From NCBI RefSeq assembly GCF_900167415.1, contig NZ_FUWU01000038.1, forward strand, positions 1 through 32,735: DNA of 32,735 nucleotides, read 5' to 3'. The stretch is from Fibrobacter intestinalis (GTDB lineage Bacteria > Fibrobacterota > Fibrobacteria > Fibrobacterales > Fibrobacteraceae). The notes under the pieces are model-generated. The model did not search any database and was not told where the DNA came from. It saw only the letters and a program-made list of their open reading frames with translations. This document shows positions 233 through 30,977 of this stretch, piece after piece. Both the position numbers and the translations under genes were made by a program. Position 1 is the stretch's first letter. Each line of letters starts with the position of its first letter.

Positions 233-1276
233 TCACCGTTGGGCCGGCTTGCGCCCGGAACCTCCCGATTTTCCAAAATTTTCGTTCCAATAATCACTAT
301 TTCTTTGCGGAGCAGGATCTTGCGCCCACTTCGGGTTCTTCACGAACTCCCAGAACGCTTCCTGCACGCGCCGCTTGCTCTCAAATGTCGGGTGCACGTA
401 AAGGTCAAGAGTCGTATGGGTGCTGGCGTGACCGAGAAGCACCGAGAGCGTTTTCAGGTCCTTGTTAGAAGTCAGCGCATGGGTAGCGAAGCTGTGCCGC
501 AGGGTGTGGATGTGGGCATCCACTTCAATTCCCGCCGCCTTCAAAAACTTCTTGAAATGGTTCTGCAAAGTCCGCTGGTCGTGCTTCACCAAAAAACTGT
601 CCGGCGGATTTTCCCTCGCCGTCTTTTTCAGCCATTGGAGCAGATTTTCCGGGATGGGGATTTCCCGATGGCCGCTTTCGCTTTTCGGTGGGCAGAGTTT
701 GCGGACGGTCTTCGGAGACTTGGCGATTTCGTCCGCTCCTTTTGCTGCTCCTTCACTTCCATTCGGCAGCCGTTCCAGCGTCCCGTGAATTTTGATAGTA
801 TTTCGTACAAAGTCAAAATCCGAAAATTTCAGGGCGCAAGCTTCCCCCAGGCGCATCCCGGTGAATGCAATCAGCAAGAGGCTCCGGGCCGAATTTTCCA
901 GTTTCGGATTTTCGTTCTTTTCCGGCGCATCAACCAGCGCGACAAGTTCCTCTGGCGAGAGGGGAACCGCCTCCCCTTTTCGTGTCGCCCCAGCGTGGGG
1001 AAAGTCCAGCGCGCCAAAATTCTCCGGCGAAAGCGACGCTTTCAAAATCTGCTGCAACGTCGCCAGCACGAAACGCCGCGTTGGAATTGCCAAATGTTCG
1101 AGAGTGCTTTCCGCAAAATCCCGCACACTTGCCGAATCAAAACCGACCAGCTCCACTTCGCCAAAATACGGCAGCAGATACTTTTGCAAAATATTTGCGT
1201 ATTTCGCCCGGGAGCTCTCGCTCCAGCCCAAGCACTTCTTTTCAAACCACCTTTTCGCCGCTTCCTTGAACCGCAT
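233..1276 (-). CDS. Tyrosine recombinase/integrase (XerC/D-like, phage-integrase family)
   Basis: Site-specific recombinase of about 347 residues that would cut and rejoin DNA through a phosphotyrosine. All catalytic residues can be seen: Arg142 in TGMRLGEACAL, Lys198 in PPKSESG, His257 and Arg260 in HTLRHSFATH, His283 in LLGHAS and the nucleophile Tyr293 in LDLYVH. The N-terminal part (about 1-100) fits a SAM-like core-binding domain. The frame is open up to 1360, but the ATG at 1276 has AAAGGAGA four bases upstream, so I prefer that start; the longer form would add 28 residues. A tail of about 35 residues after the catalytic domain is rich in Pro, Asn and Gly. The gene stands alone beside a repeat-rich gene-free stretch, which suggests a mobile island or its remnant. 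No attachment site or tRNA target was found. Family is certain; target site is unknown. Confidence 0.9.
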   Translation of the reverse strand: MRFKEAAKRWFEKKCLGWSESSRAKYANILQKYLLPYFGEVELVGFDSASVRDFAESTLEHLAIPTRRFVLATLQQILKASLSPENFGALDFPHAGATRKGEAVPLSPEELVALVDAPEKNENPKLENSARSLLLIAFTGMRLGEACALKFSDFDFVRNTIKIHGTLERLPNGSEGAAKGADEIAKSPKTVRKLCPPKSESGHREIPIPENLLQWLKKTARENPPDSFLVKHDQRTLQNHFKKFLKAAGIEVDAHIHTLRHSFATHALTSNKDLKTLSVLLGHASTHTTLDLYVHPTFESKRRVQEAFWEFVKNPKWAQDPAPQRNSDYWNENFGKSGGSGRKPAQR

Positions 1277-1403
1277 CGCGTCTCCTTTGTTCCATGACGG
1301 TGCAAAGTTTGCAAAAAAAGACGTACTCTGGCGACTTGCTGTCTGGCGTTTTTCCGTCATTGCGAACCCGCCAAGGAGAAAATCTGCCTCATTTGAAAGC
1401 GAC

Positions 1404-4854: not shown

Positions 4855-6054
4855 TTAATTTTGAAAGAAAGCCTCTAATGCTCCGGGATACCAAGAGTTG
4901 TTTGAACGGTCGTAAGCTTCAAAACCGCCGACTTTGGTGAATCCCCAGAATGTCCAGCTGATGTCGAATTTTTCGGCGGCGGCAATCGTTTTTTTATTCC
5001 AGAGAGCCCAGTATTTATCGCTCGGACCATCCGTTCCACAGCTGCTGCGGGACCCTGCCGCCACCCCGAATTCCCCCATATTGAGCGGAACATGGCCTCC
5101 ATTTACATCCGGGTAAAGTCTTCTGGCGAGGGTTACATAGCTGGCTATATCGGTTTGCGCCGAATTGATGTATGAATCATCTCCGACGCATTTATAGCCG
5201 TGGCCTTCATGACTAAAGGTGTAGGGTTCGTAATAATGTCCCGAATAGATGATGTTGCCGTCTTGGGGGAGTTTCAGGGCGCCCAGATCGGCGAATTTTG
5301 CCGCATGATAGGATTCGAACATGATTGTCTTTCCCGGAGCGGCGGCGCGGATGATGCTGTAGGCACTGAGCATCACGTCGTTCAACACGTCCGCATTTTT
5401 AATAGTCGGTTCGTTCAGGATTTCCAGAACGAGCATGGAATCGGGAAACGCGTTCAGCACCGTGGCGACTTGCGCCCAAATGGCCAAAAAGTGAGCTTTT
5501 TCGGCTTCGTAGGCGGCGGAATTGGCTTCGGGATTGTCCGTATAATTATTGGCCGCATCCATCAGTTCGTAATACCAGTGAAAATCGACAATGACTGCCA
5601 GCCCTGCCTGGATGGCCAGTTGCACATCTTCGACGACACCGGCAAGGCGGTCGGGGTTGACCTCGTGGGTGACGGGGTTGGAATTGTGCTGCCAGCGCAC
5701 CGGAATCCGCACGGAATTGAATCCCGCATTTTTGATGATTTGGAAATCCTCGTCCTGAATGGGATTGTTCCATCCGCCGTCCAGATAATCATTATAGCCG
5801 TAATTATAAGGATCGGCGGGAAAGTGGCAATCTTTATCCTTGCATACACTATAAGATTGCGAATCCCAGGCATTTCCCAGGTTCATTCCCCTGCCGAGCC
5901 GAGCGTTCATGGCTCTCCCTTGGGAATAGTCGATGGGAATGGCTACTTCTGTATCGGAAGTGGAACTGGAAGATTCCGCTTTGGTCATGCCGCCGTCGTC
6001 GGAACAACCGGTCATGAGGATGGCGAAGAGAAGTGCCGAGAAGAGAATTTTCAT
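4855..6054 (-). CDS. GH5 endoglucanase-like lipoprotein
   Basis: Retaining glycoside hydrolase family 5 enzyme, 399 residues, expected to cut beta-1,4-glucan internally at the cell surface. The signal peptide ends in LMTGC with lipidated Cys17, followed by an acidic/Ser-rich linker (18-45). The catalytic barrel starts at RGMNLGNAWD (55-64), then FNSVRIPVRW (112-121), VDFHWYY (156-162), acid/base Glu215 in LNEP, HYYEPY (273-278), nucleophile Glu328 in MGEFG, and a final SWTFWGF motif. All hallmark residues are present. AAGGAG precedes the ATG by six bases. There is no C-terminal T9SS tail, so lipidation is the likely anchor. It is divergently placed from the barrel operon at 6285 across 230 bp, and a shared regulatory region is possible. 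Exact substrate (cellulose, beta-glucan, mannan) cannot be told from sequence. Confidence 0.9.
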   Translation of the reverse strand: MKILFSALLFAILMTGCSDDGGMTKAESSSSTSDTEVAIPIDYSQGRAMNARLGRGMNLGNAWDSQSYSVCKDKDCHFPADPYNYGYNDYLDGGWNNPIQDEDFQIIKNAGFNSVRIPVRWQHNSNPVTHEVNPDRLAGVVEDVQLAIQAGLAVIVDFHWYYELMDAANNYTDNPEANSAAYEAEKAHFLAIWAQVATVLNAFPDSMLVLEILNEPTIKNADVLNDVMLSAYSIIRAAAPGKTIMFESYHAAKFADLGALKLPQDGNIIYSGHYYEPYTFSHEGHGYKCVGDDSYINSAQTDIASYVTLARRLYPDVNGGHVPLNMGEFGVAAGSRSSCGTDGPSDKYWALWNKKTIAAAEKFDISWTFWGFTKVGGFEAYDRSNNSWYPGALEAFFQN

Positions 6055-6220: not shown

Positions 6221-6248
6221 TTTGAAATGGGGAAAATCTATTTATATT
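6221..6248 (+). promoter_or_regulatory. Candidate promoter of the outer-membrane operon
   Basis: TTTGAA (6221-6226), 16-bp spacer, TATATT (6243-6248), about 36 bp before the ATG at 6285. This is the only good box of the type in the 230-bp divergent gap. The phrase TTTGAAATGGGGA recurs before the TATATT box of the Bat operon (25143). Confidence 0.5.
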
Positions 6249-6284
6249 GTTGCTTACTGGATTTTTGGAGAATGTGAAAAAAAT

Positions 6285-7019
6285 ATGAATGCTACGCAAA
6301 AACCCATTTGGAAGTGCTTGTTGGCAACGCTTCTTTTGGTTTCAATCGCTTCTGCCGGTTTTGAAGATTATCGAGACCGGGATCAGTCACGCTTTATCAT
6401 GAAACCCGCAAAACCGTTCCGCCCCGATAAGGATGTCGTATCGGTAGTGATGCGCGAAGCCATTCCGCGTGGCGGTGGATATACCTACCAGTATCCGCGA
6501 GAAAACCCCGAACCGGTCATGACGGATAAATATGCGAAAGAAGGCGCGCTTTCCATGGAAATCGAGCTTATCGCGAGCGATTATTCCGGCGTGGCCATTT
6601 GTATTGCCGGTTCCGTGGATCTCACTCCGTATTTGGAAGAGGGCGTTTTGGAATTTTGGATTAAGGGCGAAAAGGGCGGCGAAAACGCTTTGTTCGTGCT
6701 GGTGGACGATGGCGTGAAAAGCGGTGGCGAATCGCTTCAGGTCAAGCTCCGTTCCAAAAGCCTTGGCGAAATTACGACGGAATGGACGCATTTCAGCATT
6801 CCGTTGAAACTTTTCGGAATGACGGGTCTGTATTGGGATGCGAAAAACACCCGTGACGTTATGCTTCCCTTTGCGTGGGACAAGTTCAAGGGATTCCGCT
6901 TGGAAGTCCGTAAGGATGAAAACGAATCCTTCAAGGTGTGGATTGATGATATTGTAATCAAGAAACACGGCAAGCCTTATGAAGGCCCGGCCAACTATCC
7001 TTTCCGCAATGCGATTTAA
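6285..7019 (+). CDS. Secreted carbohydrate-binding-like beta-sandwich protein
   Basis: 244 residues, first gene of the six-gene operon. The signal peptide (about 1-24) probably ends at ASA before GFEDY. The mature protein resembles CBM11/CIA30-type galactose-binding-like domains in pattern: an alternating strand core, LEFWIKGEKGG, a WTHFSIPLKLFG strand (the W..v.IPL.F pattern typical of these folds), a following WDK..GFRLEV segment and a terminal FKVWIDDIVI strand. No catalytic motif is seen. The frame is open upstream to 6222, but the ATG at 6285 directly begins the signal peptide and has GGAG 14 bases upstream. The next gene starts 9 bp after its stop. Likely role: glycan binding in the periplasm or at the outer membrane. 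That is an inference from fold-like pattern only; a structural role for the neighbouring barrels is also possible. Confidence 0.75.
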   Translation: MNATQKPIWKCLLATLLLVSIASAGFEDYRDRDQSRFIMKPAKPFRPDKDVVSVVMREAIPRGGGYTYQYPRENPEPVMTDKYAKEGALSMEIELIASDYSGVAICIAGSVDLTPYLEEGVLEFWIKGEKGGENALFVLVDDGVKSGGESLQVKLRSKSLGEITTEWTHFSIPLKLFGMTGLYWDAKNTRDVMLPFAWDKFKGFRLEVRKDENESFKVWIDDIVIKKHGKPYEGPANYPFRNAI

Positions 7020-7028
7020 GAGGGCTTT

Positions 7029-9254
7029 ATGCGTAAACTAGTTTCTTCTTTTCTTATCGCTTCTTGCGCAGCTTCGGTTTGGGCTACACCAACCCAGTTG
7101 CAGTTGGACTCGATTCACGCCTCTTTGGATACGCTTTCTAGCAATATGGAATCCACTCTGCTGGGCAAGGACGATCTTCCGGTCGCTGTTTCCGGTTTTA
7201 TGGCGTTCCGCGTCAAGAATTTCCATTATTCCAATACGTCTCCGGCGTTTGCTAGCGACAAGGCCCGTATGGCGGTGGACGCTATTTTTAAGGCGAATAT
7301 CGTCGCCATGCCGAATTCGTACATGACTTTATGGACGAATTTTGCGTTCCCGTTCGACCTTTCCGGCACGTTCGGTAACAAGTATGCGACGCAGCCGACG
7401 GGCGTTCCGACTTATGACGAACGCGTTCTGTACGATCATTCCACGGACTATTATTCTTCGACTATCGATGAAGAGTTCAATGTCGGAGCCGATATTCGGG
7501 CGGGTGTCTTCGGGGCTTATATTACCGCCGGCGGTGTGATTTGGATGAACTCCTCTCCGCTGACCATTTGGGAACGTGAAACCGCTCCCCGTTTTGCCTG
7601 GCAATACGAACTTTTCGAGGACGAAAAGACGGTCAGCACTTACTACAAGGAAAAGGTTTTCAAACCGGTGAAAGAAGGCGGTCGTGCGTTCTGGACGAAC
7701 CGTTCTTTTGGTGGCGTTTTTGCGAATGTCTATCAGCTGCCGTATAATATGAAAGCGCAATTGCTGGTCTCTCAGCCGATGGATGCGGATATGGGAACTC
7801 GCGATGGCCTTCGTCTTTATGCCGGTCAGCCGGGCGAACTGGAAACCTACGGTTTGCACGATATGCGCGGCTCCATTTACCACGCCCGTATTGCCAAGGA
7901 AAAAATTCTGGACAATTTGACGGTTGGTGCGAACTATATCGGGGTTGTTTTTGACAAGGGCATCATTTACGAAGACGAATTCCGGGGCCAGTGGATTACT
8001 GCGGGTTATGATCCGATGCTTTTGAATACCCACGTGGCTTCTATCGATGTGAAGGGAAACATCACTCCGAAGCTCTACTTGATGGCGGATATCGCTTTGA
8101 GCATGACGGATTCCATCAATTTCTATGAGTCGGAAGAGGCTGCCTATGGATATGCCGAAGACGCTTACAATTCCGCGATGGCGACTCCGCAAGTGGGCGT
8201 GTATATCAAGGCGCAAAGCAAATACATTGACGGTTGGCCCATTACGGTGGAAGGCATTTATTTGCCGAAAGATTTCTATTCCCCGTATTCTTTGAGCAAT
8301 CCTTCCCGCTTTACCAGCTGGCGTAAGGATGAAGCCTACCTGAACGGAGGTTCTCTCCGCTATACGCCGAATATGATGGGCTTGAACTTCAAGCTGGAAC
8401 CGACTTTCAACCGCGGCTATTTTGATTTGCAATACGGTCAGCACCGCCAGGTGGAAGAAGGCAACGATGTGATTGTTTTCAACTATCGCTTGAACGGTCG
8501 CAACATGTGGGAAAGCACCAATTCTTGGACCAAGCACAAACCGATTTTCTGGGCGGACTCGGGAAATGCGGATCCGAAAGCGAGTGGTTATGTTGCCCGT
8601 ACAGGCATTTTGGAGCCTGGCATCGGCATTAAGCTTCGCCGTCAGCGCGGTGGACTTTATGGTGGAACTTGGGAAATGTGGGAATCCTTCACCGCGTATG
8701 AAAACGTGCAGCAAATTGCCAAGGGAGAGGTTCCGAGCCATGCCAAATGGTATTCTTTCCTTTCCTTTATGGGTGGCTATGACATTGGGCATTGGTTCGG
8801 CACGGATCGCAATATCATGATGACGGGTTATGCGGCACTTTCCGGAGTCTCTACAACGATCGCTCCGATTGCCTACAGCGAAGACCAGACTGATATGCTC
8901 CTTTGGAGCTTCTTCGGGCAGTTTGAACCCGCTATTGCTGTAACGCCGAAATTCCACATGGTCGGTCTTCTCGGTATTGAAATGTTCCGTTCCAAGAACG
9001 CCTTTACCAGCTATAGCGTATCGAATGGCCTTGCCAAGACTTCTTCCCTGTATGGAGAAGTTAATTCTTCTTATTATTCCTATGCTCCAATAAATTATTT
9101 GGAAACTGCCATCGGAATTGGTTTCGATTGGGACTTTGCAGATAGAGCCGGTCTGCACGTCCGTTATAAGTGGATGACCCATTCGGATGAAGTCCTCTCT
9201 GTGAACGATTGGCATATGCATTATATTTCGGCGGAAACCAAGGTCTGGTTCTAA
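7029..9254 (+). CDS. Large outer-membrane beta-barrel protein, barrel 1 of 3
   Basis: 741 residues, family not recognised by name. The signal peptide (about 1-19, ending VWA before TPTQ) is followed by a short heptad-like helix (TQLQLDSIHASLDTLSSNME) and then a long body of alternating aromatic/hydrophobic strands with polar loops. The protein ends YISAETKVWF, a C-terminal Phe strand typical of BAM-inserted barrels. No TonB box or plug domain is visible. SSPLTIWERE (about 175-184) weakly parallels a motif shared by barrels 2 and 3. The ATG at 7029 follows AAGAGGG. It is co-transcribed with the genes on both sides (gaps of 9 and 17 bp). Likely a porin-like channel or surface scaffold for a glycan system; transport substrate unknown. 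Confidence 0.78.
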   Translation: MRKLVSSFLIASCAASVWATPTQLQLDSIHASLDTLSSNMESTLLGKDDLPVAVSGFMAFRVKNFHYSNTSPAFASDKARMAVDAIFKANIVAMPNSYMTLWTNFAFPFDLSGTFGNKYATQPTGVPTYDERVLYDHSTDYYSSTIDEEFNVGADIRAGVFGAYITAGGVIWMNSSPLTIWERETAPRFAWQYELFEDEKTVSTYYKEKVFKPVKEGGRAFWTNRSFGGVFANVYQLPYNMKAQLLVSQPMDADMGTRDGLRLYAGQPGELETYGLHDMRGSIYHARIAKEKILDNLTVGANYIGVVFDKGIIYEDEFRGQWITAGYDPMLLNTHVASIDVKGNITPKLYLMADIALSMTDSINFYESEEAAYGYAEDAYNSAMATPQVGVYIKAQSKYIDGWPITVEGIYLPKDFYSPYSLSNPSRFTSWRKDEAYLNGGSLRYTPNMMGLNFKLEPTFNRGYFDLQYGQHRQVEEGNDVIVFNYRLNGRNMWESTNSWTKHKPIFWADSGNADPKASGYVARTGILEPGIGIKLRRQRGGLYGGTWEMWESFTAYENVQQIAKGEVPSHAKWYSFLSFMGGYDIGHWFGTDRNIMMTGYAALSGVSTTIAPIAYSEDQTDMLLWSFFGQFEPAIAVTPKFHMVGLLGIEMFRSKNAFTSYSVSNGLAKTSSLYGEVNSSYYSYAPINYLETAIGIGFDWDFADRAGLHVRYKWMTHSDEVLSVNDWHMHYISAETKVWF

Positions 9255-9271
9255 AGGAGAGAGCGTAAACA

Positions 9272-11482
9272 ATGAAAAAGAATATGAAAAAGTTTTTGAT
9301 CGCTTTCCTTGCTGCTGCCGTAACAGTCCCCGCTGCAACAGAATGGCAAACTCAAGAAAGGCTGGACGCTAAAGTAGATTCCATTCAGGCGAAACGTGGA
9401 GTCGTTATCGGCGGGAAAATTCGCGCGGCAGCTCAAGCTTCGTATTTTGACACCGATCAGGATCCGACCGGAAAGAATAAAATGCCGGAAACGGAGCGAA
9501 ATGAAATGGCGAATGCCGACATCGATTTCCATTTTCGTCCGTATGAATTTGTTCGGGCTAATGTGATGTTCCGAATGGGCGCGGGAATGCAGGAGTATTT
9601 CTCGTCCGCCTCCAAAACCCTTTCCGTCGGCTGGATAAACGTCGAAGGGAATATTGGAAATAATTTCTATTGGGTCGTCGGTGATTTCAGGCAGCAATAC
9701 AGCCCGCTGACTCTCTATTCTCCGGATGTGGAAATTCTTTACGAGCCGACCATTTTCGCTCGTAAACGTCACATGGCGGAGTCGCAGGAACTTCTTGAAG
9801 GCAATCAGCGCAATTTGCAGGGTGCCAACGTGCAATTCCGCGAGTATTTTGGAAAATCTCTTGGGGAATTCCGTGCCGAAGCGATGGTTGCCCGTATCAA
9901 TAGAACTTCGGTCTTGGATCTTTCTGGTGCCGAAGGCAATATCTTGCCGAACGATTCCGTTGCCGGAGCGAGTCAGGCTGCCAATATGGATAAATGGGTG
10001 GTCGCCGGGAATTTGGAATTGTTGCCGATGGACAAAAATCTGTATATTGGCGTGACTCCGATGTACATCTTCGATAATGAAGATTCCTATTCCTACACCT
10101 ATCGTCATCAAAATCTGTTTGTTGGCGATCCTTATGAATTGCAGCCGATTAACCCCTTTGATATAGATCCGCAGAAAACATTGATTGTCAGTGGTCGTGT
10201 CGGCGGCGATATCGCCGGTTTCTTGGGCAACAAAAACCTGATTCTCGACCTGGTTGCCGAATACGCCTATTCTTCGGACGATGTTTACAATCATTCGCAG
10301 ATTCCTGTTGTCGATGAACTGGGAAATCCGGTGATGAATTCGGAAACAGGTGAATTGGTGATGCAGGACGTTGCATCAAAGAAAACTTTGGACGGTTCCG
10401 CCCTTTTGGTAAACTTGAATGTGGGCTATAAGATGGATGCCGACTGGAGCCTTGTTCTTGGCGTGGACGTTGTCCGCAATGACAGCAACTGGTTCAACAA
10501 TTTGGCGCAGTCTCCGAAATTCTTTGCCCGCCGCATTCTGAATTCGGATGTGGATGGCAATTCGATTAAATATGGCGTCAATTCGCCTCTTTATTCCACC
10601 TTTGACGCTCTTTATAATTATTCCCCTAAGTTCTCTCCTGTGGCAAGCTCTTTGCGGACGGATGACTCTGGTTTGAAAGATGGACAAATGGACAGTTACA
10701 ATATCGCTCCGTTCAATAAGAGTTCTTGGAAATCCAATGTCTATACGCGGGCGCAGTTGGCTTTGCTCGAAGACATGAGCGATCCGGCTTTGCAGCTTTC
10801 GTTGCCAAACGGTCTTGCCACTTCTAACCGGATGGGTGGTCGCGGCAATCTGGTATTTGACTTGAAGGATTTTGCGGAAGCGCAGGTTCTCGGCAGCTAC
10901 TTTACACAGGTGTCTCCGCTGATTGGCTATAAGGAAGCGACCTATTTGGAATTTGGCGGCGGGGCCAAGGTCGATGTGTTCAAGATTCTCGGATTCCAAA
11001 AGCCGCTTGAACTTTCGGGTTCCTATAAACATTCCGAACGCAAAATCGATACGGACAACTGGGCGTCTTTGGGTTTGGTGGATGGAACCGCGGAACTCAA
11101 GAGCGATTTCATTAACGCCGGATTGTATGTACAATATCTGCCGCGACTCGGATTTACCGCTGGATTCCAGTATGTCAAAACGGAATACAATACTTACGAA
11201 GGCTTGCATAGTGGATTGGTTGCGCCTTTGATGAGCGGCAAGCAAATGCAATGGATGGTCGGGCTCGACTATTCTCTAGCCAAGAATGCTTGGCTCTCCA
11301 TCAATTACGGAATGATTTCGGTTTCGAACGAATACAACACGGCTGCCGTGGTAGCTTCCGGCTCTGCTGACGAAGCTTTCAACTTGCCTTCTTACTACGA
11401 TGTTTCGACGGATGCAAAGGGAAAGTTCAAACATGAATTTAGCCAATCGATCATCGAAGCTTCCATTAATGTGGAATTTTAG
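9272..11482 (+). CDS. Large outer-membrane beta-barrel protein, barrel 2 of 3
   Basis: 736 residues. Signal peptide of about 22 residues (MKKNMKKFLIAFLAAAVTVP), then a short helix with RLDAKVDSIQAK and a strand-rich body ending EASINVEF with the C-terminal Phe. Clearly paralogous to barrel 3: YSPLTLYSPDVEILYEP aligns with YTPYTLWTPQPNFLQEP, LPNGLATSNRMGG with LPYGIATPDRKG, and LSGSYKHSER with IQGSYAHSEE, all in the same order. No TonB box, plug or enzyme motif seen. AAAGGAGAG precedes the ATG at 9272; an in-frame ATG four codons later is also possible. The operon position suggests that the three barrels form a set, either as separate channels or as a hetero-oligomer. Function is inferred only. 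Confidence 0.78.
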   Translation: MKKNMKKFLIAFLAAAVTVPAATEWQTQERLDAKVDSIQAKRGVVIGGKIRAAAQASYFDTDQDPTGKNKMPETERNEMANADIDFHFRPYEFVRANVMFRMGAGMQEYFSSASKTLSVGWINVEGNIGNNFYWVVGDFRQQYSPLTLYSPDVEILYEPTIFARKRHMAESQELLEGNQRNLQGANVQFREYFGKSLGEFRAEAMVARINRTSVLDLSGAEGNILPNDSVAGASQAANMDKWVVAGNLELLPMDKNLYIGVTPMYIFDNEDSYSYTYRHQNLFVGDPYELQPINPFDIDPQKTLIVSGRVGGDIAGFLGNKNLILDLVAEYAYSSDDVYNHSQIPVVDELGNPVMNSETGELVMQDVASKKTLDGSALLVNLNVGYKMDADWSLVLGVDVVRNDSNWFNNLAQSPKFFARRILNSDVDGNSIKYGVNSPLYSTFDALYNYSPKFSPVASSLRTDDSGLKDGQMDSYNIAPFNKSSWKSNVYTRAQLALLEDMSDPALQLSLPNGLATSNRMGGRGNLVFDLKDFAEAQVLGSYFTQVSPLIGYKEATYLEFGGGAKVDVFKILGFQKPLELSGSYKHSERKIDTDNWASLGLVDGTAELKSDFINAGLYVQYLPRLGFTAGFQYVKTEYNTYEGLHSGLVAPLMSGKQMQWMVGLDYSLAKNAWLSINYGMISVSNEYNTAAVVASGSADEAFNLPSYYDVSTDAKGKFKHEFSQSIIEASINVEF

Positions 11483-11498
11483 TGGGAGGGACTAACGA

Positions 11499-13646
11499 AT
11501 GAAAAACTTGAATATGAAAAACTTGCTCAGCTTCTCTTCGGTGTTGTTCCTTTCTGCAACGGCGGTTTTTGCACAGCCCGAACAGAATGAGACTGCACAA
11601 CAGTCGGTGGCGAATCAGCAAAAGTCCCTGCTCGAAAAATTGGACTCGCTGAATGACGCCGTTCTCGGATTGCGGGTAAATGGATCGGTCAAAGCGGGAG
11701 TCTTGACCTCCATGGCGAAATCCGACCAGTTTAGCGACAATTCCCCGACGCAGGAAACGCAGGCTTACACCACAGCGAATCTGGTCTTTACCGCAAGACC
11801 GAGTTCCGAAACCGAGGCCAGGGTGGAACTTCGCTTGCATAAGGATTGGCAGAGCGCTTACGAAGAAAACAACAATCCGGTTATTGGGCATTGGTTCTCG
11901 TACGATGGCTTGATTCTGAATAAGCACGTTTCGTTCAATTTAGGCTATATGCGAGTCGGTTATACGCCTTACACGTTGTGGACTCCGCAACCGAACTTTT
12001 TGCAGGAACCGGAAATTTTTGCAGAGGAACGTGCCGAAGCAATGGCTGATCGTAACTTGGACACGACGAATAATCGTCTGCTTCATGGTTTGAATGTTGT
12101 TTATAACAGCGGCAATCTCGGCGTTATAGATAATATTCAAGCGCAGGTGACCGGAGCGCGTTTGCGCAACATCGCCAAGAAAAACGACGAGTCTTTCTTT
12201 GATTTCGATTGGGCTGATCGTTATCTGTTAGGTGCACGGGCTGGTGTAGATGCTTACGGTGCCCATATCGGTGCGAACTATGTTTGGGTTTTTGACCGCG
12301 AACTCAGTTTTTTGGCTCACGACTTGGACTTGGAGGATTCGCTTGCCTTGGATGAAAATCAGGTATTTTCCGGCGAAATCGGCTTTGATTCCCAGAAATT
12401 GCTTCCGGATCTTCCCGTTGTATTTGGCGTCACTGCGGAATTTGCCATGTCCTGGTGGAATGCGGATCTGTACTATTCGGGAAAGAAAACTTCAGAAGAG
12501 TATTCGTTGAAAAAGGGAACTGTTCCGAATGAGGATGGAGGACTGGATTCCATTGCTTATGTGACGGTAATAACTTCGACAAACAATGAAACCTTTAAGG
12601 AGGATTTTGCTGACGATAACGGGACAAGCTTCTACATTGCGCCGTATGTGAAGACGTCTTTCGCCGATTTTAATTTGGAATTGCGTGGACGTTATTTGCA
12701 GAATGATGAAAAGTTCTGGTCAGAATTGGCTTCTGCCCCGGCTTATCGTGGGAATGCGGTGATTTTGAATGCGAACGGTCTCTATTCGGATTCCGTCTAT
12801 GCGGCTTTGGTGTCCGCATTCGGTATGTCGAGTCTGGAAAATCTCTACTTCCGAGTGTATAATTCGAATCCTTATAATGCTTCGAATATTCAGTCTGCGT
12901 CAACGGCGAATGTCCTTTCGTCCGGCGCATCGGAATCCAGTTTGATGTATTCCCGCCTATATAATAACTACAAGAACGTACATGTTTACCGCAATGGCTA
13001 CAATGCCAATACCGTTAAACGCTTGGACTTGAACGATGCCCTGTTTCTGATGGACGGATCGCTGGATATGGCTCTTCCGTATGGTATTGCTACGCCGGAT
13101 CGCAAGGGATTTGATGTCGCTTTTGATGGTGACTGGAATGCGGCGATTCATTTGAATGTGCGTTTTTCGCAGTATAATCAGGATGCCATTGACAACAAAT
13201 ACACGCAGTTTGGTGTGGGTGCCGGCGTTCGTTTGGACAAGGTGCTGCAAGAATTTGGCGTAGATGTTGATCGCATTTTGATTCAAGGCTCCTATGCCCA
13301 CTCCGAAGAAGATCATTACTTTGAACGCAAATCCGACCGTATTATGGCTGGCGTTTCTGCGGAAATTTGGGGACCGATCGGCTTCCAGGCTGGTTTTGAA
13401 CAGTTCAAAATGGAATACGGAATTGCTCTGCCTGTGGCGACAGCCGCTTCCATCAATAAAGTCGAAGAAATGCTTTTCCGTGTTGGTCCGCGAATCAAGA
13501 TAGCTCCGGCTTCCTATTTGTCTGTTCAGTATGGACTCTTGACCGACAAGGTTTCGTTCATCCGCTCTGATGAAACAGGAGTGGTAAATGATGAACTTTC
13601 TATTGACAAAAACGTGATTATGGCAGATGTAACGGTAGCGTTCTAA
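11499..13646 (+). CDS. Large outer-membrane beta-barrel protein, barrel 3 of 3
   Basis: 715 residues. Signal peptide of about 25 residues ending VFA before QPEQ, then a Gln/Glu-rich helix with LLEKLDSLNDAVLG and a strand-rich body ending MADVTVAF. Shares ordered motifs with barrel 2 (TPYTLW, EPEIFAEE, LPYGIATPDR, GSYAHSEE, and YLSVQYGL against WLSINYGM), so the two arose by duplication and then diverged strongly. The N-terminal region RVNGSVKAGV resembles the first strands of barrel 2 (VIGGKIRAAA). GGGAGGG lies before the ATG at 11499, 16 bp after the stop of barrel 2. An extracellular loop near 500-510 is Asn/Tyr-rich (YNNYKNVHVYRNGYN). No recognised family name. Confidence 0.78.
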   Translation: MKNLNMKNLLSFSSVLFLSATAVFAQPEQNETAQQSVANQQKSLLEKLDSLNDAVLGLRVNGSVKAGVLTSMAKSDQFSDNSPTQETQAYTTANLVFTARPSSETEARVELRLHKDWQSAYEENNNPVIGHWFSYDGLILNKHVSFNLGYMRVGYTPYTLWTPQPNFLQEPEIFAEERAEAMADRNLDTTNNRLLHGLNVVYNSGNLGVIDNIQAQVTGARLRNIAKKNDESFFDFDWADRYLLGARAGVDAYGAHIGANYVWVFDRELSFLAHDLDLEDSLALDENQVFSGEIGFDSQKLLPDLPVVFGVTAEFAMSWWNADLYYSGKKTSEEYSLKKGTVPNEDGGLDSIAYVTVITSTNNETFKEDFADDNGTSFYIAPYVKTSFADFNLELRGRYLQNDEKFWSELASAPAYRGNAVILNANGLYSDSVYAALVSAFGMSSLENLYFRVYNSNPYNASNIQSASTANVLSSGASESSLMYSRLYNNYKNVHVYRNGYNANTVKRLDLNDALFLMDGSLDMALPYGIATPDRKGFDVAFDGDWNAAIHLNVRFSQYNQDAIDNKYTQFGVGAGVRLDKVLQEFGVDVDRILIQGSYAHSEEDHYFERKSDRIMAGVSAEIWGPIGFQAGFEQFKMEYGIALPVATAASINKVEEMLFRVGPRIKIAPASYLSVQYGLLTDKVSFIRSDETGVVNDELSIDKNVIMADVTVAF

Positions 13647-13657
13647 GAGGTGCGACT

Positions 13658-14533
13658 ATGATGAATAAAACTCTTAATCTTTTTATGGCATTGAGTGCTG
13701 TGGCTATCACGGCTTGCTCCTCGATGGATGTTTCTTCATCGGAAGCTTTGGAAGGAAACTACCCGAAAGATTTTACTGTAGAAGCTTATCTCTCGGTTCA
13801 TCCTGAATTGGCCGGTTTGCAAATTCAGGATCTTATCAAAGCTCACAATGATTCGCTGATGCTGGAAAGCGAAGCGATTGCTGCGGATACTGCCGCATTT
13901 TTTGCGGACACGGCTTCTTTGCACCAGATTTATGTGAATCCATATTTTGCCGGTTATAGCGAAGAGCTTTGGGTGGAAGACTGGACTCCAAACGTTATCA
14001 GCGAAACGGTCTGTGGCCTGGATACCACTTATGTGACTGTTAAGCCCGACACATTGAAAGCGTTAAAAGTCTGGCTTGGCGAAATCACCTATGATGCCGC
14101 TGGAAAAATTATCAGGGTTGAAGGTTTTTCGGATTCTCTCAAAACGGAGCCGGTTGCTTTTGACATTGACGGCGTACTTAATACAATTGTAAATCGCTCG
14201 CCAAGTAACACGGGAACAGTCGTGGATTCAACGGATTGCAAAGTTGTAGAGACCAGAACCGAGGGAGAAATTCCAAAGGACAAGAGGAGACGCCTGGTGA
14301 ACTTCAACTTCAACGACAATCTGCTGGATTTGGTCGAACTGGAATCGCTTTTGCAGAACGATTTGAATATGGACGTGATTGCTCTTCAATTTATCATGTA
14401 TGGTCAGTCTCATGGCTGGGCGTATCGAATCTGTACAGATGAAGAAAAGAATAATCCCGTGCAGACGGAAACATATCCGGCTGTTAAACTTTATTGCGAT
14501 GATGACGGTATCATCCGCGAAATTGCGGAGTGA
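13658..14533 (+). CDS. Operon lipoprotein of unknown function
   Basis: 291 residues, not recognised. The signal peptide ends in ITAC with the lipidated Cys20, followed by Ser/Asp residues. The mature part has an Ala/Asp-rich helix (about 65-90, AIAADTAAFFADTASL), a central mixed alpha/beta region and four later Cys residues that could pair. No enzyme motif is visible. It starts 11 bp after barrel 3 and ends 8 bp before the GH18-like gene, so it belongs to the operon. It may be an accessory lipoprotein docking on the barrels, as lipoproteins often do with outer-membrane transporters (inference from context). Confidence 0.75.
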   Translation: MMNKTLNLFMALSAVAITACSSMDVSSSEALEGNYPKDFTVEAYLSVHPELAGLQIQDLIKAHNDSLMLESEAIAADTAAFFADTASLHQIYVNPYFAGYSEELWVEDWTPNVISETVCGLDTTYVTVKPDTLKALKVWLGEITYDAAGKIIRVEGFSDSLKTEPVAFDIDGVLNTIVNRSPSNTGTVVDSTDCKVVETRTEGEIPKDKRRRLVNFNFNDNLLDLVELESLLQNDLNMDVIALQFIMYGQSHGWAYRICTDEEKNNPVQTETYPAVKLYCDDDGIIREIAE

Positions 14534-14541
14534 GGATTCTT

Positions 14542-15594
14542 ATGAACTTGAAATTGATCGCTCTTTCTTTTGCCTTGGGCATGACGACGATTGCCAATGC
14601 CGCTGCTGACAAGGTAGTGGGATATTTCCCGTATTGGAGCCAGTATTCCCAGTTTGCTCCGAAAGATATTCGCTATAACATGGTGACGCATATTCATTAT
14701 GTGTCGCTTTCTCCCGCATCTGACGGTTCTCTCGCCTTTGCGGATGAAAACGATGTGGAAAATTTTAAGGAATTGGCGAAGCTTTCTAGCGAAAACAACG
14801 TGAAGTTGATCGTCTCGGTTGGCGGAATGGAGCAAGAGGCTACTTTGGCGGAAATCGCTGCCTCTGACGAATTGCGTTCAACTTTTGTAAGCAATCTCTC
14901 TTCTTGGCTCGCCGAAAATAATGCGGCGGGGCTGGAATTGGATTGGCAGAATCTAACCACAGAAAATGCGGAAAATTTTGCTAAGATGGTTGCCGCATTA
15001 AAAGAAGGTCTTGGCGACAAGATTGTGTCGGTGACGGCTTACCTTCCCGCTGTTGAAGCCTATTCTGCAGAAGCTTTAAATCAAGCTGATTATGTAACGG
15101 TTTTTGTTCCGGATCAGATGACCGAAGAGGTTTCTGAGCTTAAACCGAATCAGAGCACTGCCGTTTTTGAAGAAGCGATGAATGCTTTGACTTCCAAGGG
15201 CGTAGATAAAGACAAGCTTGTTCCTGTTGTGCTTTTTTACGGCAAGAGCTTTGCTGGAGCCAAGGGCTTGGGCGATGCGCAGTCGGGAATTGGCAGCGGA
15301 AACGAAGGCTTGATTTCTTATAAGGAATTAATGACTAAGTTCGATTCGCCGGATTACAAGGTTTCTTTTGATGAAGCGACCAAGTCGGAAGTGGCTGTGA
15401 GCGATATGGAGTCCATTGTATTCATGGGAATCCCTTCGGTGAAAGCTCTTTCGGAAGTTGTCAAGAACAGTGGTTATGCGGGAGTCGCTGCTTATGATCT
15501 TTCGCAGGACCATCATGAACCGCTGGTTTCGTTGTTGGTGACGATCGGGCTGGAACTTCGTCCGGATGTGAATTACAAGTCGAAAAAGAAATAA
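14542..15594 (+). CDS. GH18-fold protein with lost catalytic residues (probable lectin)
   Basis: 350 residues. Signal peptide of about 20-21 residues, then a TIM-barrel of glycoside hydrolase family 18 type: KVVGYFPYWSQY at the start, THIHYVSLS (49-57), and SVGG (92-95), the usual SxGG strand. The catalytic strand, normally DGxDxDxE, reads AGLELDWQ (129-136), so the proton-donor Glu is Gln136, the first Asp is Ala129 and the second is Glu132. The conserved MxYD tyrosine site reads VPD (189-191), and the late Trp strand reads VAAYDLS. Hydrolysis is therefore very unlikely; glycan or protein binding, as in chitinase-like lectins, is the better guess. The ATG at 14542 has GAGGA five bases upstream. 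Last gene of the operon; a terminator follows. The family also includes active chitinases and ENGases, but this copy lacks their chemistry. Confidence 0.82.
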   Translation: MNLKLIALSFALGMTTIANAAADKVVGYFPYWSQYSQFAPKDIRYNMVTHIHYVSLSPASDGSLAFADENDVENFKELAKLSSENNVKLIVSVGGMEQEATLAEIAASDELRSTFVSNLSSWLAENNAAGLELDWQNLTTENAENFAKMVAALKEGLGDKIVSVTAYLPAVEAYSAEALNQADYVTVFVPDQMTEEVSELKPNQSTAVFEEAMNALTSKGVDKDKLVPVVLFYGKSFAGAKGLGDAQSGIGSGNEGLISYKELMTKFDSPDYKVSFDEATKSEVAVSDMESIVFMGIPSVKALSEVVKNSGYAGVAAYDLSQDHHEPLVSLLVTIGLELRPDVNYKSKKK

Positions 15595-15612: not shown

Positions 15613-15640
15613 AAAACGCTGCGGAGTCGCAGCGTTTTTT
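15613..15640 (+). terminator. Strong terminator of the outer-membrane operon
   Basis: AAAACGCTGCG, loop GAGT, CGCAGCGTTTTTT: an 11-bp stem with a run of T, 18 bases after the stop of the GH18-like gene. Confidence 0.92.
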
Positions 15641-16571: not shown

Positions 16572-18767
16572 TTAGTGTTTATTCCAATGGAAAGACGCCT
16601 GCTTGGAGCCTTGGCGAACGCGAAGAATGTAAGAACCCGTCGGAATGTTTTGCAAAGAAATCAGGTGGGTTCCGGCGGAAAGGTTCTGTTTTTGCTTGGA
16701 AAGTACTTTCCCTGCCGACGTATAAATTGCCCAGTTTACCCATCCGGATTGAGGGATTTGCAAAAGCAGACTGCCGTGTTGAATCTCGGTGCGGAACGGT
16801 GCGATTTTTGCAGAAGCAATAATGGGTGTAGCGTAGTATTCTTCTTTATTTTCTGCGGAAGCCAAAGCGCTGTCGCCGATGATCACCGTAATGCTTTTTT
16901 GGAATGCTTCCCAGTTTTCCGTTTCCGGAGCTGACGCGGTAATGCGGACTATTGCGTTGCTTGTTCCCGCTTGGATTTGTGTTGCCAACTTGGTTAGGTA
17001 AGGCGTTGATTCTTTATCGTTGTAGGTATAGCTGGTAGCGGTTCCTCCATTTAATGTGGTGTCGGGGAGTGCGTTTGCTTCGCTGAGTTCGCCAAGAGTG
17101 AGCGTGCGGTTTTTGAATTTCGAATGAAGACGCTGTTGTCCTTTTGCAAAAATAACCGTGATGGTATCATTTAAAGCGCGATATCCAGTGACTGCCGGGG
17201 CGGACACGACAATTTTTCCTTCGCCATAGGATCCTGTGAATTGAAGCATGGGCAGCGAGACTCCGTATGTTGCACCATAACAATAGTTTTTATTGTTGCA
17301 GATTCCCATTTTGACCGAGAAAAGGTCCGGGGACAAAGATTGGAAGGACATCTTCCCTCCCTCTACGGTGGTCGATTTTTTTGCTAGAAGGGTTTCAAAA
17401 TCGCTGCTGCCCGTGTAATTTCTCATTTCGTGGCCTTGAGAGCAGTTTCCCCCATAGCGGCAGGTAAAATCCGTGATTTCAGAGGTTTGCTTGGGTTCCT
17501 CTTCGACAACGATGACGGATTCGGAACCGTCATTTCCGGTAAGAATGGCAAAGCCTGCACCAACGATGGATGCCGTGGAACCAGATACGGAAACGGCTTC
17601 GGTATTGCTGGACGTGTAAGAGCAGCCTGCTGTTAAATCCACAGAACCGGCGGTTTCGCTGACGGTCTTGCTTTTGAAGTGGCAGGAGCCGGATTTGCCT
17701 GCGACAAGGGAGTCCGCCCAGGGGCGAATGTGTTTTTGAAGATAGTTTTTGACGATGGTTCCAGAGGCGGTGTAGCTTGCATTATTCAATGCCTCTTGGG
17801 TAGTCAAGTTTTCGGAACCGTCAAAAATGGCGGAGCCCTCTTCAGAATTATCGACAGTGCTTCGGTATTGGCGCAGGCTCCAATTGCAGTTGCTGATATT
17901 GTTCTGATCCATGAACGTGAGCCATTCATTTGTGGCACTTTCGTTGGCTGTCCCTTTTCCGTCGGCGCTAGTTGTACCCCATTCCGAAATGAATACGGCA
18001 TTTCCGCTGTTCATGGCGGCGGAGGCTCTAGTTCCGTAAGTGCTGACGCTGTGCGTACCAGCATAAAAATGAAGAACGTAGGCGATATTTGTTCCGCTGA
18101 CCCCGCCGTATGAAGAAAGCTGCGACCAGCTCGGCGTTCCGACAAGAATTAAATTTTGTGTGAATTGGCGGATTTTAGGAACAATGGTATTTGCGTAATT
18201 GGAAATTACCGACCAGCTTTGATTCACGGGTTCATTGAAAATTTCGAAAATCACGTTGGGTACATCGGCGTATTTCTGTGCCACCTTTGTAAAGAATTCT
18301 TCCGCTAGGGACTGTTCTTCGTTCGCGCGGTGGCTGTGCCAGTCGATGATAATATAAATGTCGTTTTTGATGGCGGCTTCCACCATCTGTTCCAGCAATG
18401 CCAAATTGCTGCTGGGATTGCCTTTATAGGAGTAGTTTTCGTCCAAAGGGTCGCTCTCATCCGCTTTGTAATGTTCGATGCCCATGGCAAAACGGAACAC
18501 GTCAATTCCCAGATTTTTAGCCGCCCAGGAAATGACCTCGGGATTGTAGTATTGTGAGCCGGTGGCGTCCGACCAGAAAAGGCTTACGCCGCGCAAAACT
18601 ACTTGTTTGTTGTTTTTTAGGCTGATGATTTTGCTGCCGCTAGTGCCAAGGGCTCCATAATTTTGGACGGGACCTACGCGAATCGGTTTGGCAGAGCTGA
18701 CGTCGGCAAAAGCTGTTGCAGAAAACGCCAACACGCTTGCGCAAAGAAACTTGGTGAATGTTTTCAT
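16572..18767 (-). CDS. GH5 (subfamily 2-like) endoglucanase with Ig-like repeats and T9SS tail
   Basis: 731 residues. Signal peptide 1-21 (ends AFA before DVSS). The GH5 domain spans about 30-345: RGVSLFWSD (59-67), DWHSHRANEEQ (142-152), acid/base Glu179 in FNEP, VLHFYAGTHS (231-240) and nucleophile Glu262 in ISEWGTT. This pattern fits GH5_2 endoglucanases of the Bacillus/Erwinia type. A bacterial Ig-like segment follows (SSNTEAVSVSGSTASIVGAG), then further beta-rich repeats (about 430-650) of unclear family. The C-terminal 60 residues (WAIYTSAGKVLSKQ ... GSYILRVRQGSK) match a type A T9SS sorting domain, so export through the type IX system to the surface is likely. AGGAGA precedes the ATG. 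The upstream GH8 gene ends 37 bp away, so the two are probably one transcript. Substrate: soluble or amorphous cellulose/beta-glucan. Confidence 0.92.
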   Translation of the reverse strand: MKTFTKFLCASVLAFSATAFADVSSAKPIRVGPVQNYGALGTSGSKIISLKNNKQVVLRGVSLFWSDATGSQYYNPEVISWAAKNLGIDVFRFAMGIEHYKADESDPLDENYSYKGNPSSNLALLEQMVEAAIKNDIYIIIDWHSHRANEEQSLAEEFFTKVAQKYADVPNVIFEIFNEPVNQSWSVISNYANTIVPKIRQFTQNLILVGTPSWSQLSSYGGVSGTNIAYVLHFYAGTHSVSTYGTRASAAMNSGNAVFISEWGTTSADGKGTANESATNEWLTFMDQNNISNCNWSLRQYRSTVDNSEEGSAIFDGSENLTTQEALNNASYTASGTIVKNYLQKHIRPWADSLVAGKSGSCHFKSKTVSETAGSVDLTAGCSYTSSNTEAVSVSGSTASIVGAGFAILTGNDGSESVIVVEEEPKQTSEITDFTCRYGGNCSQGHEMRNYTGSSDFETLLAKKSTTVEGGKMSFQSLSPDLFSVKMGICNNKNYCYGATYGVSLPMLQFTGSYGEGKIVVSAPAVTGYRALNDTITVIFAKGQQRLHSKFKNRTLTLGELSEANALPDTTLNGGTATSYTYNDKESTPYLTKLATQIQAGTSNAIVRITASAPETENWEAFQKSITVIIGDSALASAENKEEYYATPIIASAKIAPFRTEIQHGSLLLQIPQSGWVNWAIYTSAGKVLSKQKQNLSAGTHLISLQNIPTGSYILRVRQGSKQASFHWNKH

Positions 18768-21118: not shown

Positions 21119-21227
21119 TTTTGAAAAGTAAAAAAGAATTAACAATGAAAAACGTCTTGATGGTGGGGTCTTTTGAAAAAAAAAGTTAGCGTAGGAAAAA
21201 ATCTCTTTCTTTTTTGTGGAAAAAAGA

Positions 21228-21233
21228 TATATT
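21228..21233 (+). promoter_or_regulatory. -10-like box before the small T9SS cargo gene
   Basis: TATATT, about 52 bases before the ATG at 21286. No convincing -35. The box matches those before the operons at 6285 and 25174. Confidence 0.45.
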
Positions 21234-21285
21234 AAATGGCAAACCGTCCTTATTGGACATTCACATTAACAAGAGAGAGAAAACT

Positions 21286-22194
21286 ATGAACAAGAAAATC
21301 TTTGCTGCAACCGCCGTTCTTGCCGCAGTGGCCATGTCTTTCGGCTTGGAAACCTGGGTAGGTGCCAATAGCGAATACCGTATCGAAACGGGTTTTGACG
21401 ATGGCACGGACACATACGGCTATTGGTATGATTATAACGATGCCAACGATGGCGGTTCTTCCACCATTACATGGCCTGTTGAGAAGGGCAATGAATATGA
21501 CGACAATGCGCTGGACCCGATTATTGATTACTGTAGCGGCCTTTGCGCAACCGTGTCTCTGGGTGCTGGCTTTGACTACCCGTTCGTGGGTGTCGGCTTC
21601 AACGTTTCCGGCGGCGACCAAAAGGGTGAGGATGTTTCTAGCTGGGGTGGTATTTGCATTGGTTACAAATCCACGGGCATTGCTCCGGCACTCGAAATCT
21701 CTCCGGAAGACGAAGGCACTGTGACTGAATACAATAACTACAAGGCTGCGTTGAAAATTGCAGCGACTCCAACGGTTGCAAACCTCGCTTGGAGCGACTT
21801 TAAGCAGGAAGCCGGTTGGGGCAAGAAAGTCAATCAGTCTGAAGTTCTTGCGAAGACCGCTGCTGTCAAGTTCAAGATGGCCGGCAAGGCTGGTGCTACC
21901 ACCGAATTTAACATCACGACTATCGGTGAATACGGCAAGTGCGATGGCTCTGCTATCCAGTCTGTAAAGGCTGCTTCTGCTTTGAAAGCTTCTGTTGTTG
22001 GTCGCACCCTTTCCCTCTCCGGTGTCAAGGCTGGTGCAACGGTTGAAATTCTCAACCTCCAGGGTCAGGTGATGCTGAAGAGCGTTCTCAACTCTGCCAA
22101 CGCTTCCCTGTATCTCGCCAACATGGATGCCGGTATCTACATGGTTCGTGTTGCTGGTCAGGCAAACCTCAGCCAGAAGATCGTTCTCAAGTAA
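21286..22194 (+). CDS. Secreted CBM-like protein with T9SS tail
   Basis: 302 residues, no catalytic motif recognised. Signal peptide of about 20 residues (MNKKIFAATAVLAAVAMSFG). The main domain (about 22-225) is beta-rich with Trp, Tyr and Gly (ETWVGANSEYRIETGFDDG, YGYWYDYNDAND, VGFNVSGGD, SWGGICIGYKS, LAWSDFKQE). This looks like a CBM11/CIA30-type galactose-binding fold found in Fibrobacter secreted proteins. The C-terminal 75 residues (ALKASVVGRTLSLSGV ... AGIYMVRVAGQ) form a T9SS-type sorting domain. The ATG at 21286 follows GAGAGAG and starts the signal peptide; the frame is open upstream to 21214. It has its own -10 box and strong terminator. Codons are noticeably uniform (many AAC, AAG, GGT, CTC), which hints at high expression. 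Likely a surface glycan-binding protein. Confidence 0.8.
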   Translation: MNKKIFAATAVLAAVAMSFGLETWVGANSEYRIETGFDDGTDTYGYWYDYNDANDGGSSTITWPVEKGNEYDDNALDPIIDYCSGLCATVSLGAGFDYPFVGVGFNVSGGDQKGEDVSSWGGICIGYKSTGIAPALEISPEDEGTVTEYNNYKAALKIAATPTVANLAWSDFKQEAGWGKKVNQSEVLAKTAAVKFKMAGKAGATTEFNITTIGEYGKCDGSAIQSVKAASALKASVVGRTLSLSGVKAGATVEILNLQGQVMLKSVLNSANASLYLANMDAGIYMVRVAGQANLSQKIVLK

Positions 22195-24978: not shown

Positions 24979-25159
24979 TCCATTTGGCTTTTGAAAGAGC
25001 CATGGTGTCTATCCGTTTTTGCTTTCTTTTCACCTTTTATCGCTAGCCGCTTTGTGGTATTCTGATGGCGTAGGAATTCCTTGTTGCTAATCGCTCCCTA
25101 AAGTAGTGCTTTTTACTTTTCCATGAACTTTTTGTGACTGTTTTTGAAATGGGGATTTT

Positions 25160-25165
25160 TATATT
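25160..25165 (+). promoter_or_regulatory. -10-like box of the Bat operon
   Basis: TATATT only 8 bases before the ATG at 25174. With normal spacing the transcript would start 1-2 bases before the start codon, giving a leaderless mRNA. No ribosome-binding sequence is present. The -35 is unclear. Confidence 0.45.
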
Positions 25166-25173
25166 CTTTTTCG

Positions 25174-26007
25174 ATGATGACGGATTCTTTGCAAAATAGT
25201 ATGATTGCAGATTCTGCGGCGGTGGACGCTGTCGTGGAACCCGTGAAAATGGATTTGTCCGTTCGCACGGATTCGCTCCCGCAAACGATTTTGAAGGGCG
25301 ATACTTTTGAATTTAAGGTCGATATTTCCTGGCAGGCTCCGGCGGGGCAGAGTGCCGTTTTGATTCTTCCGGCGAGTTCGGCGAATGCCAAGGGAATTAC
25401 TCAGCTGGGCGTTCGCGAGGAACATTTTCGCAAAGTTCTTGGAGACAAGTCCGTTTCTCATACGCGGTTTATTTGGACGCTTTCTGCGGACGATACGGGC
25501 ACGGTTTCGATTCCGGCACTGCGTTTCCAGATTCCGTCGGCGAATGGACCTTTTGAATTGGAATCCGAAAGCGTGATGTTTCACATTGGCGAGCCCGCAC
25601 ATGTGGGTGCTTATGCTGCTTTGGGCGGGGGAATTTTCGTTTTGCTCTCGGTTTTTGTGGCGTTGCTATGGCGGCGAAAAAATCGTTTGTCGGCGAAAGC
25701 AAAACAGGAAAAGCGAGATGAAGATGCTTTGGCGGAGCAATTTTTGCTGCTGAAAAAACGGGTCGCCAAGGCGGATAGCCGGATGTGGTTGCTCGATTTG
25801 GAAAAAATTTGTAAATCATGGGCTATGCGGCGTTTTGGAAACGACAATCTGGAGGATCTGGCGAAGAACGGGCTTTTGGACGGCTGGCAACCCTTGCTGG
25901 ATGAATTTGCGCATGCTCGTTATGGCGGCGGAGAACGAGATGCTTTCCAAAATAAGGAGTCGTGGAAAACGGCGTCGAAACTTTTAAATATTCAAGAAGA
26001 CGAATGA
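25174..26007 (+). CDS. BatD-like membrane protein lacking a visible signal peptide
   Basis: 277 residues. A beta-rich domain (about 25-140, DLSVRTDSLPQTILKGDTFEF ... FELESESVMFHIGE) resembles the extracytoplasmic Ig-like domain of BatD proteins. One membrane helix (about 145-166, YAALGGGIFVLLSVFVALLW) is followed by a basic stop and a cytoplasmic helical domain (LLDLEKICKSWAMRRFG ...). Related proteins carry an N-terminal signal peptide, but here the N-terminus (MMTDSLQNSMIADSAA) is hydrophilic; the frame extends to a TTG at 25144 that adds only a short semi-hydrophobic stretch. It is the first gene of the operon, with moxR starting 7 bp after its stop. Likely partner of the MoxR/vWA proteins. 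Same domain order as the gene at 27890, with little sequence identity. Confidence 0.65.
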   Translation: MMTDSLQNSMIADSAAVDAVVEPVKMDLSVRTDSLPQTILKGDTFEFKVDISWQAPAGQSAVLILPASSANAKGITQLGVREEHFRKVLGDKSVSHTRFIWTLSADDTGTVSIPALRFQIPSANGPFELESESVMFHIGEPAHVGAYAALGGGIFVLLSVFVALLWRRKNRLSAKAKQEKRDEDALAEQFLLLKKRVAKADSRMWLLDLEKICKSWAMRRFGNDNLEDLAKNGLLDGWQPLLDEFAHARYGGGERDAFQNKESWKTASKLLNIQEDE

Positions 26008-26014
26008 GGACAAT

Positions 26015-27001: not shown

Positions 27002-27002
27002 T

Positions 27003-30961: not shown

Positions 30962-30977
30962 TAGGGATTTTGTATAA

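Follow-up and report, generated by a model that had tools for sequence, protein, structure and literature searches.

A conserved six-gene operon of Fibrobacter encoding predicted plugless outer-membrane barrels and putative glycan-binding proteins: a candidate apparatus for uptake of beta-glucan oligosaccharides

Introduction

How do cellodextrins cross the outer membrane of Fibrobacter? The mechanism has been stated to be unknown (PMC6851124; here and below, statements on Fibrobacter succinogenes S85 are those of the main texts of the papers cited). A locus in Fibrobacter intestinalis raises the question anew. It lies on one contig of a 3.29-Mb genome, and this contig, 32,735 nucleotides long, is the stretch of DNA that we analyzed (the window). 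A first-pass annotation of the window had proposed that six genes set among cellulase genes encode a distinct and undescribed outer-membrane complex for binding or importing oligosaccharides, other than the SusC/SusD systems of Bacteroidota. Here we examine what the proteins are, how widely the operon is conserved, which genes accompany it in relatives, and which function best fits these observations.

Organization of the operon

Six open reading frames on the plus strand span positions 6285 to 15594 in the order CBM30 protein, barrels B1, B2, and B3, lipoprotein LP, and GH18-fold protein (Table 1). The intergenic gaps are 9, 17, 16, 11, and 8 nt; thus, the ORF coordinates bear out the tight spacing (8 to 17) noted in the first-pass annotation. 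The strong terminator that it placed behind the last gene is also confirmed by the stability and z-score of the hairpin, whereas the single promoter is not supported: the candidate box agrees with the consensus at 9 of 12 positions, and similar sites are about equally common in shuffled sequence. For the GH18-fold gene, the ATG at 14542 is a more likely start than the GTG at 14530. Sec-type signal peptides are seen in five of the six proteins and a lipobox (TAC/SS) in the product of the fifth gene, LP, in agreement with the earlier claim that all six carry export signals.

Table 1. Features of the operon and its immediate surroundings in the window
Feature	Position	Strand	Evidence
CBM30 protein, 244 aa, Sec signal peptide	6285..7019	+	Pfam CBM30 1.7e-17
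Barrel B1, 741 aa, predicted plugless outer-membrane beta-barrel	7029..9254	+	AlphaFold, fold matches
Barrel B2, 736 aa, ~22 predicted strands, plugless	9272..11482	+	AlphaFold, fold matches
Barrel B3, 715 aa, B2 paralog	11499..13646	+	Full-length BLASTP to B2
Lipoprotein LP, 291 aa, no Pfam family	13658..14533	+	Lipobox in translation
GH18-fold putative pseudoenzyme, Sec signal peptide	14542..15594	+	Pfam GH18 1.3e-37, motif AGLELDWQ
Intrinsic terminator hairpin with T tail	15614..15640 (about)	+	-18.7 kcal/mol, z = -3.0
Promoter-like box TTGAAA-17-TATTGT	6222..6250	+	Not above chance
GH5 cellulase, divergent lipoprotein-like gene, outside operon	4855..6054	-	Pfam Cellulase 2.2e-33

The operon is flanked by two GH5 and two GH8 genes, as identified with Pfam. 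A link to glycan uptake had been argued from these flanks; this part of the argument is not upheld, and the flanking genes differ from genome to genome among relatives. Weak matches to Por_Secre_tail (type IX secretion sorting) were seen in the GH5 protein encoded at 16572-18767 (minus strand) and in an unknown protein encoded at 21214-22194 (plus strand). A phage-type integrase gene (233-1360, minus strand) and a gene for a YhgA-like putative transposase (PF04754; 23830-24978, plus strand) lie near the cellulase genes, and a MoxR-DUF58-VWA-TPR operon of the Bat aerotolerance type (25144-32350, plus strand) has no relation to the six-gene operon.

The CBM30 protein, the GH18-fold protein, and the lipoprotein

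The first protein, initially described only as CBM-like, belongs to the CBM30 family (PF21582; 64.3 bits, cut-off 27). The last protein has a GH18 fold (130.6 bits, cut-off 29.6), in which AGLELDWQ replaces DGxDxDxE; judged by its sequence it is catalytically dead, as the first-pass annotation had recognized. The catalytic glutamate (the acid/base of DxxDxDxE) is absent from all 81 copies of this protein in Fibrobacteraceae, mostly with glutamine in its place. The same combination of a GH18 fold with a lost catalytic glutamate is found in the chitinase-like lectins (CHI3L1/YKL-40), which are among the PDB relatives of the protein; these lectins are animal proteins, whereas the operon protein is bacterial and has an S85 counterpart for which cellulose binding is reported (see below).

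The genes syntenic with LP in relatives are lipoprotein-like too. Genes at this position (loci L032-L146) encode fast-diverging proteins of ~208 to 404 aa, and their place between B3 and the GH18 gene is fixed.

The barrel proteins

B2 and B3 are full-length paralogs (BLASTP, 9e-29). No link between B1 and B3 was detected by BLASTP; comparison of the B1 profile with that of B2/B3 gave a match with 95% probability (E 3e-8, 601 columns), and an SPLTxW-type motif is common to all three proteins. By profile similarity, B1 is distantly related to B2 and B3. AlphaFold models, run with 40 relatives, predict ~22 long strands behind a short N-terminal helix in B2 (pLDDT 78, pTM 0.78) and a similar layout, with weaker confidence, in B1 (pLDDT 69, pTM 0.73). 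The first strand starts at residue ~43-52 in both models, which leaves no room for a plug domain, and the Pfam Plug model has no match in B1-B3 or in 37 relatives. Elsewhere in the phylum the model does find plugs, in 166 of 168 Fibrobacterota genomes.

Outer-membrane barrels usually have a C-terminal phenylalanine, and the translations of B1, B2, and B3 all end in this residue. Together with the closed barrel of the models, the signal peptides, and fold matches with Z scores of 12-17, this makes the class of B1 and B2 clear: they are modeled as outer-membrane barrels, as had been proposed from the sequence. No specific family is singled out, as Foldseek and VIA-align place usher, AlgE, Occ, chitoporin, and TonB receptors at similar scores. 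When the B1 profile and the B2/B3 profile were searched against PDB sequences, no match up to E = 1 was returned; B1-B3 and LP have no Pfam match above the curated cut-off, and PHROGs returned nothing for them. We also considered the PopA superfamily (16-strand barrel, radial oligomer, loop 8; PMC12228718) and set it aside: the predicted strand number of B1 and B2 is higher, and its members FSU_2404 and FSU_0230 (PMC12228718) are other Fibrobacter genes, not the operon barrels.

Conservation in Fibrobacterota

A scan of named genomes yielded 77 best loci, ahead of 48 weaker candidates, and all of them belong to Fibrobacterota (Fibrobacter, Fibrimonas-type termite bacteria, and others). As labeled by phmmer on simple ORFs, the six-gene order is present in 65 of these 77 loci, in keeping with the expectation of a conserved arrangement; most of the remaining 12 are truncated by contig ends, and a few have broken or unlabeled genes. 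Of 168 Fibrobacterota genomes, 145 have B1, usually as a single copy, and it is present in 31 of 41 genera. It occurs in 145 of the 152 genomes that have a Cel51A/CBM30 protein and in none of the 16 that do not (Fisher p ~3e-17, with kinship ignored; the genomes are mostly MAGs and mutually related, so the counts are not independent).

Given that the fold matches are generic outer-membrane barrels from many families, B1-B3 might be general porins that occur in sugar operons by chance, without any particular connection to glucans. The fixed, phylum-wide linkage with a CBM30 protein and the joint absence of the two argue against this, and we consider it very improbable.

Comparison with known systems

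In the SusC/SusD loci of Bacteroidota, too, a single operon encodes a barrel of the outer membrane together with glycoside hydrolases and surface proteins that bind glycans, and the inferred task is the same. Binding proteins and hydrolases of this kind are found here as well: the CBM30 protein, the GH18 fold, and, in relatives, a Cel51A-type protein. However, the Fibrobacter barrels are unrelated to SusC in sequence and, as the first-pass annotation had concluded, plug and SusD are both missing: SusD_RagB has no match in the source genome and is present in only 9 of 168 Fibrobacterota genomes. Thus, the operon is not a SusC/SusD system. Loci linked to B1-B2 further differ in carrying ABC importers and phosphorylases.

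The nearest described analog, compared by description, is the "atypical PUL" chu_1276-1280 of Cytophaga hutchinsonii, which encodes two outer-membrane proteins, CBM11-like cellulose-binding proteins, and an endoglucanase and is required for cellulose use (PMC12016534). It belongs to another phylum, and its barrel has been likened to TonB-dependent transporters (PMC12016534). Sugar-specific porins (chitoporin, maltoporin, and the Occ family) are likewise barrels without a plug that take oligosaccharides or small substrates, but they have 16-18 strands versus the ~22 predicted in B2, and no sequence similarity to the operon barrels was seen.

Gene neighborhoods outside Fibrobacteraceae

The other families of the phylum show the gene order B1-B2-X. 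The third protein, X, is ~640 or ~1050 aa long and combines CBM30 with CBM11; its long form also has a GH51-type catalytic part. In all 32 loci left uncut by contig ends, X comes immediately after B2, and several X proteins have lipobox-like cysteines at their N-termini. In families f6 and f8 (L061, L062, L049, L157), X is only ~640 aa long and consists of CBM30 and CBM11, with no GH51 part. In S85, Cel51A (endoglucanase F, Fisuc_3111/FSU_0382) is described as CBM30, CBM30, CBM11, GH51 (PMC6851124), the same architecture as that of X. Unlike X, Cel51A is encoded away from the barrels in Fibrobacteraceae; the source genome has, on another contig, a 1066-aa protein that is 47% identical to an X.

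ABC importer genes are present in 30 of 36 loci (counts for these loci were made by hand from the neighbor table), mostly of the SBP5-OppBCDF type and, in a subset, SBP1 with MalF/MalG-like permeases. GH94 phosphorylases occur in at least 7 of the 36 loci, and alpha-glucan phosphorylase in others. Since two unrelated importer types stand beside the same barrels, a role in sugar uptake is better argued than by either type alone. The proposed link to glycan uptake is therefore upheld by the neighbors in relatives, namely the Cel51A-type protein, the ABC importers, and GH94, rather than by the GH5 and GH8 flanks. The CUT1-type importer (SBP1, MalF/MalG-like) replaces the Opp type in five loci of one family (L046, L047, L070, L071, L160), where the MalG-like protein is unusually long (~630 aa).

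Orthologs of SBP5-OppBCDF (SBP 56% identical, contig C87) and a GH94 gene (contig C53) are found elsewhere in the source genome. That importer and GH94 are unlinked to the operon in Fibrobacteraceae counts against a role in import; the linkage may be ancestral and have been lost when the operon was split in this family, or it may have arisen in the other families.

The constant neighbor of B1-B2, a CBM-bearing protein of surface type, could also mean that the barrels serve as a scaffold or in adhesion, where they would anchor, display, or export Cel51A, the CBM30 protein, and the pseudo-GH18, while oligosaccharides take another route. The cellulose binding reported for the S85 GH18 counterpart would suit such a role, as would the requirement for adhesion in growth of S85 on cellulose (PMC6204037). 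However, the same loci also hold phosphorylase genes and importers of two unrelated types, which point to uptake, and we regard a scaffold as an unlikely explanation.

A chitin-type relative of the operon

In another family, three loci (L042, L045, and L048; G158:C100, G156:C105, and G159:C65) carry B1-B2-B3, with CBM30 ahead of B1 wherever the contig reaches that far. Two of the loci continue directly with GH20 and two GH18 genes and have another GH18 gene close by; in the third, GH18 genes are located downstream. The catalytic glutamate is kept in all eight GH18 proteins of these chitin-type loci. Two of the genomes, G158 and G156, hold both operon types, the chitin-type and the Cel51A-linked one. 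In the B1 tree (midpoint root, some long branches), Fibrobacteraceae group with the chitin-type loci and a related order-level lineage, apart from all Cel51A-linked B1, with support of 100/100. The tree and the composition of these loci thus point to the Fibrobacteraceae operon as sister to the chitin-type operon. Because the operon has this relationship and its GH18 protein has lost the glutamate, the latter is best read as a pseudoenzyme retained for binding.

Counterparts in F. succinogenes S85

Only one S85 protein, Fisuc_1525/FSU_2007, is listed with CBM30 as its sole module, and the GH18 protein "CBP-9," reported as cellulose-binding, is Fisuc_1530/FSU_2012 (PMC3079729, PMC4619616, PMC6851124). 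The two are five locus tags apart, and a GH5 gene lies at FSU_2005. On the basis of this spacing, the CBM30-only and GH18 proteins, and the nearby GH5, the present six genes match Fisuc_1525-1530 (FSU_2007-2012), a match by description and order, not by sequence. In the main texts of the literature on these tags, the set is not treated as an operon, nor are the barrels treated as a system; Fisuc_1525 and Fisuc_1530 are already known there, as separate proteins only. What had been called undescribed is therefore so for the operon and the barrels, within this literature, and not for the counterparts of its first and last proteins.

Fisuc_1525, Fisuc_3111 (Cel51A), and Fisuc_1230 (SBP5) were detected in the S85 envelope on every substrate (PMC4619616), and Fisuc_1530, Fisuc_3111, and Fisuc_2900 (cellodextrin phosphorylase) are described as high, stable CAZy genes (PMC6204037). 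Several of the reported observations count against a role in import. Expression of Fisuc_1530 is constitutive (PMC6204037); the amount of FSU_2012 in the envelope drops slightly on cellulose (-1.30 fold; PMC6851124), which speaks against strong induction by cellulose; and the medium is about six times richer in Fisuc_1530 protein than the outer membrane.

Proposed function

We favor, with modest confidence, the view that the operon encodes a SusC/SusD-independent outer-membrane apparatus for capture and import of beta-glucan oligosaccharides; we infer import, its direction and energy source, and a complex of the six proteins. The CBM30 protein and the pseudo-GH18 would be binding modules that grip glucan chains at the cell surface, LP may be a small outer-membrane adaptor, and B1, B2, and B3 would form the channel or channels that pass oligosaccharides to the periplasm. 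The SBP5-OppBCDF importer and GH94, encoded elsewhere in the genome, would complete uptake and phosphorolysis. With plugless barrels, diffusion towards high-affinity binding proteins would be the simplest idea for how transport is driven. The initial idea of a distinct outer-membrane complex is thus strengthened but not proven.

Cellodextrins might instead enter through a TonB-dependent receptor (Raut et al., FSU_2400-2403), and the operon might serve another polymer or peptidoglycan turnover. One plug protein in the source genome and the increase of TonB/ExbBD proteins on cellulose in S85 (PMC6851124) leave room for a TonB route and count against import by the operon barrels, and kinship with the chitin-type operon would suit another polymer. 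However, Raut et al. found no matching receptor (PMC6851124). Their proposal that FSU_2012 is a chitinase tied to peptidoglycan (PMC6851124) is disfavored by the loss of the catalytic residue in Fibrobacteraceae GH18, and another polymer fits poorly both with a GH18 protein that is dead in every copy and with a counterpart reported to bind cellulose. All in all, we find a TonB route improbable.

Returning to capture and import by the operon, a broader reading is possible, and we offer it tentatively: B1-B2, with B3 in some lineages, may constitute a phylum-wide, plugless multi-barrel gate for beta-linked oligosaccharides that exists in cellulose and chitin versions. Fibrobacteraceae would then apply the chitin-type version to cellulose, and its chitinase would now serve as a binding module.

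Conclusions

Fibrobacter is a leading rumen cellulose digester, and the operon supplies named gene candidates for the step at which cellodextrins would cross its outer membrane. These candidates are common to most of a phylum in which nearly all genomes are without SusD. The operon also yields a cellulose-linked putative pseudo-chitinase and barrel families that have neither a Pfam family of their own nor a sequence relative in the PDB.
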